A DNA stretch of 64,000 nucleotides from contig NZ_MTQO01000047.1 in assembly GCF_001984155.1 (NCBI RefSeq), positions 124,001 through 188,000 on the forward strand, in the 5' to 3' direction. Position numbers and translations under genes: made by a program. Positions 2,725 through 7,710 of the stretch are shown here, one piece after another. The notes below the pieces were generated by a model. It was not told the origin of the DNA. It worked only from the letters and a program-made list of their open reading frames with translations, and did not search any database. Origin of the DNA: Actinosynnema sp. ALI-1.44. GTDB lineage: Bacteria; Actinomycetota; Actinomycetes; Mycobacteriales; Pseudonocardiaceae. The stretch's first letter is position 1, and each line of letters starts with the position of its first letter.

Positions 2725-2884
2725 GAGTGCAGTCGACCACCGCCGCGGCCGCCGCTCAAGGCCATCCCGGCAAGTCCGACTCGGAGAAGGTCACCGGTCG
2801 GGTTCATCCCGCTGGTCGGAGCCAAGATCAGACTGTGACACGCCGGTACATCTGGGGGTGTGTTTTCGGCGCTGGCACTACATG

Positions 2885-3055
2885 TAGGGTCTGCGTCGTC
2901 GATGCGACAAGGGAACCCGGTGCGAGTCCGGGACTGCCCCGCAGCGGTGAGCGGGAACGACCGCCGTCATGGAAGCACTGGGCGTGAGCCTGGGAAGCGA
3001 CGGCCAGTAGGTCCAGGTGTTGCCTGGATGCCCGCGAGTCCGAAGACCTGTCATC
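2885..3055 (+). ncRNA. Cobalamin (B12) riboswitch
   Basis: The 454-bp gap before nrdA contains recognisable cobalamin-aptamer elements: 'GGTGCGAGTCCGGGACTGCC' followed by 'CCGCAGCGGTGA' (2919-2949) and the 3' B12 box 'GCGAGTCCGAAGACCTG' (3034-3050). These are the conserved core and receptor-loop regions of adenosylcobalamin riboswitches. From established knowledge, Streptomyces nrdAB(S) (the oxygen-dependent class I RNR) is repressed by B12 through such a riboswitch, letting the B12-dependent class II enzyme take over. The layout here is the same: aptamer, hairpin with T-run, then the nrdA ribosome-binding site. Exact 5' border is approximate. Confidence 0.93.
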
Positions 3056-3106
3056 GACGCGTGCGCCGGCCGGCGTGCGCGTGTCCGGAGCCTCGCGGGA
3101 AGGCCG

Positions 3107-3178: not shown

Positions 3179-6100
3179 GTGACCGCAACAGCTGTGGGAT
3201 TTGAGAGCCGCGTCGTCGACGCGTGCGCGGGTGTGCCCGATGTGGCTGCCGAGCTGGTGATCGCCGAGGTGGCGCGCAACGTCTACGACGGCATCACCGA
3301 CCGGGAACTGGACGACGCGCTGATCATGTCGGCGCGCACGTTCGTGGAGACCGAGCCGAACTACTCGTTCGTGTGCGCGAGGTTGTTGCTGGACAAGCTC
3401 AAACGCGAGGTCCACGGCGCGGTGGCCGAGGACAAGTACTTCCACGAGTACATCCGCAAGGGAGTCGAACTCGACCGGATCGACCCGGAACTGGCGACGT
3501 TCGACCTGGACAGGATCGCCGCGGCGATCAAGCCGGAACGCGACCTGGCCTTCGGCTTCATCGGCCTGCAAACCCTCTACGACCGCTACCTGCTGCACGA
3601 GCACGGCGTGCGTTACGAACTGCCGCAGGCATTCTTCATGCGCGTGGCCATGGGCCTGTCGGTCAGGGAGGACGACAGGGAAGCCAGGGCGATCCAGTTC
3701 TACGAACTGCTGTCCAGCTTCGACTTCATGTGCTCGACACCGACCCTGTTCAACTCGGGGACCACGCGCCCGCAGCTGTCGTCCTGCTTCCTGACCACAG
3801 TGGACGATGACTTGAACAGCATCTTCCAGGGCTACCGCAACAACGCGTTGCTGGCCAAGTACTCCGGCGGCCTCGGCAACGACTGGACGCCGGTGCGCGG
3901 CATGGGCGCGCACATCAAGGGCACCAACGGCCAGTCGCAGGGCGTCGTGCCATTCCTGAAGATCGCCAACGACACGACGGTCGCGGTGAATCAGTGTTTC
4001 GCACCGGAAACCCTGGTCTACACAGCCGACGGCGCCAAGCAGATCCAGGCGATCCAAATCGGTGACATGGTTCTCGGCATCAGCGGCACCTACCGCGAAG
4101 TGACCGAGGTGATGGCCTACGACCAGGTCGACCCCATGGTCGAGGTGAACGTCAAGCACTCGGTCGACACGCTGAAGGTCACCGCGGGGCACCCGTTCTA
4201 CGCGATCAAGGGCGTGCCGTTGGGGCAGGACAATGCGCGCACGCTGAAGTGGCTCGCCAACGGCAAGGTCGAGCCGGAATGGGTGGACGCGGGCAACCTG
4301 GAGAAGGGCGACTACGTCGCTCAGGTTGTGCCAACGGAAATCGTTCCGGTCGAGGGATTCACCGAGGACGACGCGCGGCTCTACGGCATCCTGCTCGGGG
4401 ACGGACACCTGTCGAAGGACGGCCAGCAGTGGGGTGTTTCCGGCAATCCGGAGTTGGACACGCATCTCGACTTCGTCCGGGCTTACCTGACCGCTCGTGG
4501 AATTCACTTCTGGGAAACGGGCAGGGATGAGACCTGTGCCCAGGTCCACTGGGCATTCGGGCGTGGCGTGCGACGTGATGAGAAGAGCGGGCGCATATCG
4601 GGTGCGGGTGACCCAACGCTCCCGTTCACGTATGACGACGTGTACGACGAGAACCACAACAAGCGGATCTCCCGCAGGTTCTCACACTTGCCGCACACAC
4701 AGACCCGGATGTTGCTGCGAGGGTTGCTGGAAACCGACGGCGGAGTGTCACGTGGCGTCGAGATCTACTTCACCACGACTTCTCAGCCCCTGGCTGCTGG
4801 GGTTCGTTACCAGTTGTTGCGGATGGGCGTTCCCTCAGCCGGGCAGTACCGAGAGCGTCAGCAGGACCACACGGGCACGCGTTCGGACGGCACCGCGATC
4901 TTCTTCACAGGAGTCGTCAAGGCTTTCGACGTCCGCGTCCCAGCTGTACAGGGTATCGCCGAGCTCGTCGGGTGCAGGCCACTGACCAAGCACAACTGGA
5001 TCGAACACGGAGGCATGGTCTACTCCCGGGTTCGCGAGGTCCGCGAAACCGAGGTTGTTCCGACGGTTTTCGACCTCAAGGTGGACGCCGACGAGTCCTA
5101 CATGACTGCGGCGGGACTCGCGCACAACGGTGGCAAGCGCAAGGGTGCGGCGTGCGCCTATCTGGAGACGTGGCACATCGACGTCGAGGAGTTCCTCGAC
5201 CTGCGCAAGAACACCGGTGACGACCGGCGCCGTACGCACGACATGAACACGGCCAACTGGGTGCCGGACGAGTTCATGCGCCGCGTGGAGGCTGACGGTC
5301 ACTGGACGCTGTTCTCCCCGGACGAGGTCCCAGACCTGCACGACACCTACGGCGACGACTTCGCCAAGCGCTACCGCGCATACGAAGAAGCCGCGGAACG
5401 CGGCGAGATCCGCGTGCACCGCAAGGTGCGGGCGCTCGACCTGTGGCGGCGGATGCTGACCATGCTGTTCGAGACCGGCCACCCGTGGATCACGTTCAAG
5501 GACCCGTGCAACCTGCGTTCGCCGCAGCAGCACACCGGTGTCGTGCACTCGTCGAACCTGTGCACCGAGATCACGCTGAACACCAGCGCCGACGAGGTCG
5601 CCGTGTGCAACCTCGGCTCGGTCAACCTGGCCAACCACGTGACACCGCAAGGCGTCGACCACGAGCGGCTCGAGCGGACCGTGAAGACAGCCGTTCGCAT
5701 GTTGGACAACGTGATCGACATCAACTTCTACACCATCCCCGAGGCCGAGCGGTCCAACCTGCGGCACCGCCCGATCGGTCTGGGCATGATGGGGTTCGCC
5801 GACTCGCTGTTCACCCTGCGGATGCCGTTGGCCTCCGCGGGCGCTGTCGAGTTCGCCGACCGCAGCATGGAGGAGATCAGCTACTACGCCATCACCGCGT
5901 CGGCCGAGTTGGCGCGTGAGCGCGGCAGCTACGAGTCCTTCGACGGCTCGTTGTGGAGCAAGGGGATCCTGCCGATCGACTCGGTCGCGCACCTCGGCGA
6001 CCACGTCGACGTCGACACGGCCTCCACTTTGGACTGGGGGCCGGTGCGTGAGCTGGTCCGCGGTGGTGTGCGCAACTCCAACATCATGGCGATCGCGCCG

Positions 6101-6658
6101 ACCGCGACGATCTCCAACATCGTCGGTGTCGGCCAGTCGATCGAACCGCTCTACCGCAACCTGTTCGTGAAGTCCAACATGTCCGGGGACTTCACCGTGG
6201 TGAACGCCGCGCTGGTCAAGGACCTCAAGGAGCGCGGTCTCTGGGACGCGCGGATGGTCGCGGACCTCAAGGTGCACGACGGCGTGCTCGGCCCGGTCGC
6301 GCGGATCCCGATCGACCTGAAGGCGCTGTACGCCACCGCGTTCGAGATCGAGTCGGACTGGCTGATCGAGGCCGCGTCCCGCCGCCAGAAGTGGATCGAC
6401 CAGGCGCAGTCGCTCAACCTGTACATCGCCGCGCCGAGCGGCCGCAAGCTGGACGCGCTCTACCGCCTGGCCTGGCACAAGGGCCTCAAGACCACCTACT
6501 ACCTGCGTTCGCAGAGCGCGACCCACGTCGAGAAGAGCACGTTGCAGGGCACCGACGGCAAGCTCAACGCCGTCGCCGTGCGCAACGTCGCACCCACCGC
6601 CCCTGTCGAGCCGGTCGCCTGCTCGATCACCGACCCCGATTGCGAGGCCTGCCAGTGA
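3179..6658 (+). CDS. nrdA: Class I ribonucleotide reductase large subunit, interrupted by an intein
   Basis: The start is the GTG at 3179, preceded by GAGGAGGGG; an in-frame ATG at 3128 sits inside the terminator and is not used here. The precursor is 1159 residues; without the intein (residues 273-650) it is 781. Visible RNR features: radical-site pair Cys in 'QLSSCFL', the active-site loop 'NLCTEI' (Asn/Cys/Glu), the second redox Cys in '[10 protein letters not shown]', the stacked tyrosines in 'KTTYYLRS', and a C-terminal redox pair in '[12 protein letters not shown]'. The N-terminus keeps only the helical part of an ATP-cone ('[20 protein letters not shown]') and lacks the beta-hairpin, so overall-activity regulation may be lost. 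The C-extein closely resembles the Chlamydia-type NrdA ('[18 protein letters not shown]'). It overlaps nrdB by 4 bp and is under the B12 riboswitch. Confidence 0.95.
3995..5128 (+). mobile_element. Intein with LAGLIDADG homing endonuclease inside NrdA
   Basis: The insert lies between Gln and Gly of the conserved 'AVNQ/GGKRKGA' loop. It begins with Cys ('[13 protein letters not shown]', block A), has block B 'VTAGHPFYA' (TxxH), two endonuclease helices ('[15 protein letters not shown]' and '[16 protein letters not shown]'), block F '[15 protein letters not shown]' and ends with 'AAGLAHN'. It is 378 residues, normal for an intein plus endonuclease. All classical catalytic residues are present except the +1 nucleophile: the first C-extein residue is Gly (GGT at 5129-5131) instead of Cys/Ser/Thr. 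Block F has Asp, not the Cys of class 3 inteins. The reading frame is intact throughout. Confidence 0.95.
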
Positions 6659-7710
6659 CCGTCACCAATGAGCCGCTGATCGAACGCGGCGCGGCCCGTG
6701 TCCACGTCGACGACAAGGCGATGATCAACGCCCGCGCCGACGTCAACCAGTTGCTGCCGCTGAAGTACCAGTGGGCGTGGGACAAGTACCTCGCCGGGTG
6801 CGCCAACCACTGGATGCCCACCGAGGTCTCGATGCAGGCCGACATCGCGCTGTGGCGTTCGCCGGACGGCCTGACCGAGGACGAGCGGTTCGCGATCAAG
6901 CGCAACCTCGGCTTCTTCGCCACCTCGGAGTCGTTGGTGGCCAACAACATCGTGCTCGCGGTGTACCGGCACCTGACCAACCCGGAGTGCCGCCAGTACC
7001 TGCTGCGCCAGGCGTTCGAGGAGGCCGTGCACACGCACACCTTCGAGTACATCTGCGAGTCGCTCGGCCTGGACGAGGGCGAGCTGTTCAACATGTACCG
7101 CGAGGTCCCGTCGATCACCGACAAGGCGTCGTGGGCGCTGGACTACACCCAGCACTTGGAGGACCCGACCTTCTCCACCGGCACGCCCGAGAACGACCAG
7201 GCCTTCCTGCGCGACCTGGTGGCGTTCTACGTGGTCTTCGAGGGCATGTGGTTCTACACCGGGTTCGCGCAGATCCTGTCGCTGGGCCGGCGCAACAAGA
7301 TGGTCGGCATCGCCGAGCAGTACCAGTACATCCTGCGCGACGAGTCGATCCACCTGAACTTCGGCATCGACTCGATCAACCAGATCAAGATCGAGAACCC
7401 GCACCTGTGGACCGAGCGGTTCCAGGCGGAGATCCGCACGATGCTGGGCGAGGCGTGTGAGCTGGAGGTGGCCTACGGCCGCGACACCATGCCCAACGGC
7501 CTGCTCGGCCTGAACGCGCAGCTGTGCGAGCAGTACATGCACTTCATCACCAACCGCCGTTGCGCGCAGCTGGGGCTCGAGCCGGTGTTCGGGCCGACGG
7601 AGAACCCGTTCCCGTGGATGTCGGAGGCGATGGACCTCAAGAAGGAGAAGAACTTCTTCGAGACCAGGGTGACCGAGTACGCCTCGGGATCCAGCCTCGA
7701 CTGGGACTAG
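6655..7710 (+). CDS. nrdB: Class Ic-type ribonucleotide reductase small subunit (R2c, likely Mn/Fe)
   Basis: The start is the GTG at 6655, overlapping the nrdA stop (GTGA), giving 351 residues. The metal ligands are all visible: Glu92 ('TSESLV'), Glu123 and His126 ('EAVHTHTF'), Glu196 ('VVFEGMWF'), Glu230 and His233 ('RDESIHLN'). At the position of the radical tyrosine (E. coli Tyr122) there is Phe130. Phe at this site and Glu rather than Asp as the first ligand define class Ic, known from Chlamydia trachomatis R2 (E89, E120, H123, F127, E193, E227, H230 - here each shifted by +3), which uses a Mn(IV)/Fe(III) cofactor in place of a tyrosyl radical. The C-terminal '[20 protein letters not shown]' also matches that group. 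It makes the radical for NrdA. Confidence 0.94.

Follow-up and report, generated by a model that had tools for sequence, protein, structure and literature searches.

Inteins are sorted into three mechanistic classes, and in excerpts of three papers the routes of classes 1, 2 and 3 all run through a Cys, Ser or Thr at the +1 position (PMC4031507, PMC7664689, PMC7765530). Class 1 inteins combine the +1 nucleophile with Cys1, a TxxH motif, Asp at position F:4 and a His-Asn end, and include LAGLIDADG inteins such as PI-SceI and Tli VMA. Class 2 inteins have no nucleophile at position 1, and Cys+1 attacks the N-junction. Class 3 inteins, such as that in DnaB of phage Bethlehem, have no Cys1 and carry Cys at F:4 as part of a WCT motif, and are recognised as departing from the canonical mechanism.

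Bacterial intein-like (BIL) domains of type A end in His-Asn and have no +1 nucleophile, and Dassa 2004 and Aranko 2013 are said to be papers on BIL splicing. One paper, as excerpted, treats them as a precedent for splicing without a +1 nucleophile by way of a thioester, Asn cyclisation and the freed amine, and states that they yield mainly cleavage, one of them having spliced only once its Tyr+1 became Cys (PMC4031507). The excerpted part of a review takes the contrary position that type A BILs cleave and cannot ligate (PMC7765530).

Inteins of ribonucleotide reductase (RNR) are on record, in partial accounts, as Methylococcus MCA2543, Thiomargarita NrdA, phage P1201 RIR1, CroV RIR1-h and Aquifex R2. 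The Aquifex R2 intein, whose splicing has been demonstrated, links Leu229 with Cys230 and has Cys+1, unlike the family described here. The other four share with this family their location in RNR subunits, and are compared without the +1 residue, which those partial descriptions do not give. Here, an intein with Gly at +1 is described in NrdA of class I RNR, encoded in a 64,000-nucleotide stretch of DNA from Actinosynnema sp. ALI-1.44 (the window).

The interrupted nrdA gene and its insertion site

In the window, nrdA is a single open frame that runs from the GTG at 3179 to the TGA at 6656-6658 with the intein inside it (Table 1). Reading of the DNA confirmed the preliminary description of a 378-residue intein with Cys1, TxxH and His-Asn, followed by Gly (GGT, 5129-5131). 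The motifs NLCTEI, AVCNLG, TYYLR and CEACQ, which we take to be those of the NrdA active site, are undamaged. Alignment with P. aeruginosa NrdA begins only at residue 169, so that the N-terminal ATP-cone region seems to be absent from the window protein. A profile search also found a class II gene, named nrdJ by NCBIfam, on the same contig about 100 kb from nrdAB. Switching between two RNRs is gated by B12 in Streptomyces, and the cobalamin riboswitch before nrdAB, together with nrdJ as a B12-dependent RNR, probably reflects a similar choice between two enzymes.

Table 1. Features of the interrupted nrdA locus, in window positions
Feature	Position	Strand	Basis
Cobalamin (B12) riboswitch upstream of nrdAB	2883..3069	+	Rfam RF00174, 82.7 bits
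nrdA N-extein, 272 aa, last residues VAVNQ	3179..3994	+	frame, GTG start after GAGGAGG; 5IM3 alignment to Gln442
Intein, 378 aa, Cys1 (TGT) to His377-Asn378 (AAC)	3995..5128	+	sequence reading; boundary set by empty alleles
Block B, T63-A-G-H66 (TxxH)	4181..4192	+	T63, H66 in 56/56 alleles
Endonuclease block C, YGILLGDGH, Asp136	4382..4408	+	sequence reading, allele alignment
Endonuclease block E, GLLETDGG, Asp248	4721..4744	+	allele alignment; LAGLIDADG_3 match at residues 237-294
Blocks F and G: Asp360 at F:4, Glu367 for block-F His, His377-Asn378	5066..5128	+	sequence reading, allele alignment
+1 residue Gly (GGT), opens GGKRKGA in loop 2	5129..5131	+	sequence reading, 5IM3 alignment
nrdA C-extein including stop	5129..6658	+	NLCTEI, AVCNLG, TYYLR, CEACQ all found
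nrdB, class I RNR small subunit	6655..7710	+	Pfam PF00268, NCBIfam NF005550; overlaps nrdA stop

The window intein matches LAGLIDADG_3 above the Pfam cut-off, and the Hint and intein models match below theirs. Its AlphaFold2 model (pLDDT 84, pTM 0.83) has PI-SceI (miniprecursor) and the Tli VMA intein as best PDB matches. With these class 1 inteins it has in common the fold, block order, Cys1, TxxH, F:4 Asp, His-Asn and a two-motif endonuclease, whereas its family differs from class 1 in having Gly+1 in all of 56 alleles and Glu in place of the block-F His in 53 of them. Both LAGLIDADG motifs retain the acidic residues, Asp136 and Asp248, which by motif are presumably catalytic; one or both are missing in 10 of the 56 alleles. 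The BIL structure 2LWY gave a weak profile match to residues 2-74 (E 0.004).

The intein lies between a Gln and the sequence GGKRKGA, and both Gln-1 and GGKRKGA are constant in the 56 alleles. Against P. aeruginosa NrdA (5IM3) the N-extein ends at Gln442 and the C-extein starts at Gly443; against human RRM1 the N-extein ends at Gln288, the human loop, QGGNKRPGA, being longer by one residue. By these alignments the insertion site is RNR specificity loop 2, immediately past the substrate-facing Gln. Loop 2 relays the allosteric signal to the active site, and because the intein interrupts it the unspliced precursor should be inactive.

Related NrdA genes were aligned at the site, as the preliminary description had proposed. 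The empty site reads NQ followed by GG[KR]R[KL]GA in 21 of 21 intein-free nrdA loci (L080-L100; 16 from one motif search and 5 from another, both of which fixed part of GKRKGA), which fixes the boundary. Since intein-free NrdA has the same Gly, the +1 Gly belongs, on this comparison, to loop 2 and not to the intein. The agreement of 56 alleles and 21 empty sites rules out a sequencing error or a slipped boundary; with 5IM3 it also disposes of the two escapes foreseen earlier, a miscalled +1 codon and a shift by one residue. A first DNA pattern for the loop sequence gave no match in the window's own genome.

Conserved residues and possible chemistry

Cys1, T63, H66, D360, Y369 and N378 are each present in 56 of 56 alleles, and the penultimate His377 in 55, with Ser in its place in L136. 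The junction scripts behind these counts fixed GKRKG after +1; one run restricted +1 to G, S, C, T or A and a later run left it free. The junctions of the viral allele L116 were read by coordinates, and L137, which is cut by a contig end and stands outside the 56, is the sole family locus that failed the junction patterns. Residue 367 is Glu in 53 alleles, Ala in two (L069 and L133) and His in one, compared with His at the equivalent position in six of seven control inteins. A role for Glu367 as an essential base is weakened by the two Ala alleles, and the change in pairing between residue 367 and the penultimate residue, from Glu/His in the family to His/Ser in L136, is a single event. L136 (G1350), which occupies the same site, is divergent: it has the block-F His and a Ser-Asn end, and it still has Gly+1.

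The seven other inteins, which come from an incomplete motif scan with L062 and L145 read by eye, have Cys (L110, L111, L112, L144), Ser (L117, L062) or Thr (L145) at +1. Three of these loci encode two inteins in one NrdA chain, with Gly+1 in loop 2 and a canonical residue at the other site (Cys+1 in L110 and L144, Thr+1 in L145).

The family thus has the class 1 features Cys1, TxxH, Asp at F:4 and His-Asn throughout (His377 in 55 of 56) and Gly at +1 where class 1 has Cys, Ser or Thr, which upholds the earlier view that the canonical class 1 pathway, as written, cannot run to its end. Class 2 is ruled out by the presence of Cys1 together with Gly+1. Class 3 is ruled out, as already argued from the window alone, by Cys1 and Asp360 in every allele, class 3 being the reverse in having Cys at F:4 and no Cys1. 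With type A BILs the family shares the lack of a +1 nucleophile and the His-Asn end (55 of 56). BILs mostly cleave and, according to the excerpted review (PMC7765530), are located where non-conserved proteins have hypervariable regions, whereas this family occupies one fixed NrdA loop 2 site in a conserved enzyme in all 56 alleles and carries a homing endonuclease. As judged from sequence, therefore, the family fails one class 1 feature as well as the definitions of classes 2 and 3, and the known Methylococcus and Thiomargarita NrdA inteins may belong to it. No report of Gly+1 inteins was found in the open-access literature searched.

Splicing of some kind quite probably takes place. The reading we favour, with moderate confidence, is a functional splicing intein that would work without a +1 nucleophile through a thioester, Asn cyclisation and amine attack. 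The residues for thioester formation and Asn cyclisation are all conserved in the family, as is Gly+1, and with the type A BIL precedent they make the BIL-like route suggested in the preliminary description the best lead. Cys1, assisted by T63 and H66, would attack the carbonyl of Gln(-1) to give a linear thioester. Transesterification would be skipped, because the +1 residue is Gly. Asn378 would cyclise with the assistance of His377, freeing the C-extein with its Gly alpha-amine, and this unhindered amine would then attack the thioester and make the Gln-Gly bond of loop 2 directly; Gly is the least hindered amine for such an attack. The two halves of NrdA form one barrel, and their folding into it would hold the cut ends together.

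Two variants of this chemistry would supply a substitute nucleophile. In one, a block-F hydroxyl, that of Ser/Thr368 or Tyr369, would receive the acyl group from Cys1 and hand it on to the Gly amine, a detour like that of class 3. Position 368 is Ser or Thr, and 369 Tyr, in 56 of 56 alleles, but canonical inteins too can have the Ser equivalent to 368 (DHSF in L110 and L144), so that it is no hallmark of the family; Cys1 is kept, unlike in class 3, and F:4 is Asp and not Cys, so that this detour appears distinctly improbable. In the other, the thiol of a Cys that stands at +9 in 55 of the 56 alleles and at +8 in the viral allele would take the acyl group and pass it to Gly+1 by a long-range S-to-N shift. 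The same Cys is found in intein-free NrdA, and was thus not selected for the intein, and the ring in the transition state would be very large; capture at such a distance is extremely improbable.

Spread of the family and endonuclease decay

The 56 distinct alleles, all at one site, come from Actinomycetota, Gammaproteobacteria, Chlamydiota and one viral contig. They rule out an oddity confined to the window, and the Gly+1 intein is, judged by this distribution, a widespread mobile family. It was found in 8 of 390 genomes of the window's taxonomic family, five of the eight same-genus genomes listed being among these; G216 and G219 have an intein-free nrdA, and G215 has nrdJ only. An alignment scan of one genome per species gave 11 loci, in Actinomycetota (Kibdelosporangium, Allokutzneria, Amycolatopsis, Nocardiopsis and Marinitenerispora) and in other phyla (a Thiothrix MAG, two further Gammaproteobacteria MAGs and a Parachlamydiales MAG). 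The scan also gave L014, titled Rhodococcus rhodnii NRRL B-16535, a title that is probably wrong. Among sampled genomes, the intein was found in 17 of 190 from the phylum of the Parachlamydiales MAG, 8 of 321 from the class of a gammaproteobacterial MAG (nine matches, one of them a DnaE intein), 22 of 63 from the order of the Thiothrix MAG and 1 of 396 from Actinomycetota, namely the window's own genome.

The viral contig, L116 (159 kb), carries the intein in its own, quite different nrdA, beside a gene that by eye is nrdB-like; chaperonin-like, clamp-loader-like and DNA-ligase-like genes were also named by eye from its translations. Its mean identity with the actinobacterial alleles is 59.5% over the intein and 47.4% over the extein, and this closer likeness of the intein is a sign that it moved horizontally. 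Between and within the cellular groups, mean extein identity exceeds intein identity (the L056 extein value being lowered by part of a second intein), so that recent transfer is, on these identities, not the general pattern there. On a 38-allele tree, one branch sets the Chlamydiota alleles apart (support 100/99) and another the Actinomycetota alleles (100/100).

No relative of the window intein with a canonical +1 residue was seen at another site; matches outside the family were distant, and comprise G957 DnaE (Ser+1) and L117-L119, of which L117 has Ser+1. Plasmids gave no match, and the INPHARED phages gave 18 records with distant matches (below 36% identity, none reaching 80% coverage). 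A viral scan with one sequence as query yielded no relative; alignment queries gave L116.

Substitution rates were compared in 14 pairs hand-picked from 37 alleles. In five pairs dS was infinite for one part or more, and many dS values were about 1 or above and hence rough. Where dS was finite, dN/dS was 0.06-0.20 for the Hint part (10 of the 14 pairs) and 0.08-0.22 for the endonuclease part (nine pairs). The exteins gave 0.05-0.43 (10 pairs), and poor matching of N-termini may account for the upper end of this range; within the window's genus, the extein values of the two closest pairs were 0.05 and 0.14.

Endonuclease decay is a better test of selection than dN/dS. Asp136, Asp248 or both are missing in L011, L059, L075, L077, L078, L079, L134, L135, L138 and L139, although the change in L075, Asp to Glu, may not mean lost function. 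The losses need eight changes on a quick tree, seven of them forced by supported branches. All 10 decayed alleles retain Cys1, T63, H66, D360, H377, N378 and Gly+1. Compared with their relatives, L138 and L139 have 76-77% identity in the Hint part and 56-58% in the endonuclease part. The difference, Hint minus endonuclease, is 14-20 points in L135, L138 and L139 and 8.5-10.3 in L077-L079, against -9 to +4 in intact alleles; L059, L075, L134 and, less clearly, L011 have little or no gap, perhaps through recent endonuclease loss. The keeping of splicing residues in inteins that would be unable to home is as expected if the host needs the intein removed. L138 and L139 (G1348 and G1360), naturally shortened to 315 residues and with ruined endonuclease motifs, are good starting points for a mini-intein.

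Dependence of the hosts on nrdA and the fate of the precursor

The importance of nrdA, which the preliminary description had thought probable for the window's organism, is not supported there: nrdJ is in the genome, a cobalamin riboswitch precedes nrdA, and G215 of the same genus has nrdJ as its single PF02867 gene. With nrdJ present, and with G215 having no other RNR large-subunit gene, nrdA is probably dispensable in the genus. For the built-in control on RNR that the preliminary description also raised, evidence was found in neither direction. By NCBIfam naming, nrdJ occurs in 10 of 10 bearing Actinomycetota, the window's genome included, and therefore nothing there forces splicing. The argument from importance rests instead on the relatives outside Actinomycetota, most of which yielded no RNR gene besides the interrupted nrdA.

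Among those relatives, several of which are MAGs by title, no PF02867 gene besides the interrupted nrdA was found in 17 of 17 Chlamydiota that bear the intein and in 8 of the 10 bearing gammaproteobacterial genomes examined, or 25 of 27 genomes checked for the large subunit; 18 Thiotrichales alleles from the Thiothrix-order sample lie outside this census. In the remaining two Gammaproteobacteria, G883 and G929, a second RNR gene is present, and it bears an intein of its own. The eight include G890 despite an extra nrdA 3' fragment and G849 despite an nrdA broken as assembled. No class III NRDD gene was found in the 27 genomes, the control search being positive in 6 of 14 known genomes. Because completeness is not stated, single absences prove little, and it is the agreement of all 17 Chlamydiota that carries weight. 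Among 11 intein-free Chlamydiota searched, 10 gave a single nrdA, accompanied in one case by an additional 24-bit match, and the eleventh gave none. As assembled, two of the interrupted genes have a broken C-extein, by a frame break with two TGA in the shifted part in G849, where no other RNR was found, and by an assembly gap in G1233. In G890 the nrdA 3' end is duplicated (L115, 4408-10445) beyond a block of about 6 kb with a gene that by eye is DNA-methylase-like, a layout that would fit an island which inserted at the nrdA end and restored nrdA in doing so.

A non-functional intein in a dead nrdA of the window's organism, with the domain kept by homing alone, would fit the presence of nrdJ in every bearing actinobacterium and the same-genus genome with nrdJ only. 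It is at odds with the low extein dN/dS of the two closest pairs in the genus, with splicing residues that outlast endonuclease loss and with bearing genomes in which no other RNR was found, and is very unlikely.

Conserved Cys1 and His-Asn are, against splicing, equally expected of a domain that cleaves twice. Such a domain would excise itself without ligation and leave two NrdA pieces to act as a non-covalent enzyme. These residues are enough to cut both ends, phage Aeh1 NrdA functions as two polypeptides according to partial accounts (PMC3653736, PMC3267527), and BILs, in the excerpts, mostly cleave (PMC4031507), one review denying them ligation (PMC7765530). The cut would, however, fall within the specificity loop, right past the substrate-facing Gln; Gln-1 and GGKRKGA are unaltered in all 56 alleles, as if a continuous loop were still required; and in 25 genomes, where no other RNR was found, the two-piece enzyme would have to suffice. 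Excision without ligation is thus unlikely.

If ligation does follow thioester formation and Asn cyclisation, the family may represent a fourth natural class of protein splicing, towards which we lean slightly. There would be no branched intermediate, the amine of the +1 Gly would attack the N-terminal thioester directly, and the route would have been kept in a virus and three bacterial phyla, within an RNR that is apparently the sole one in many hosts. Under this reading it is the intein and not the host that adapted, because loop 2 keeps its Gly at +1.

BIL domains without a +1 nucleophile splice poorly if at all. That a homing family with Gly+1 persists in a conserved RNR, often apparently the only one of its host, implies that an efficient nucleophile-free route exists. 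Were cleavage the only outcome, the family would provide a naturally split RNR whose two pieces part within the specificity loop, which would also be unexpected. If true, the nucleophile-free route would close a gap in the known mechanisms of protein splicing, and its Gln-Gly junction would avoid the Cys, Ser or Thr scar that limits protein ligation.
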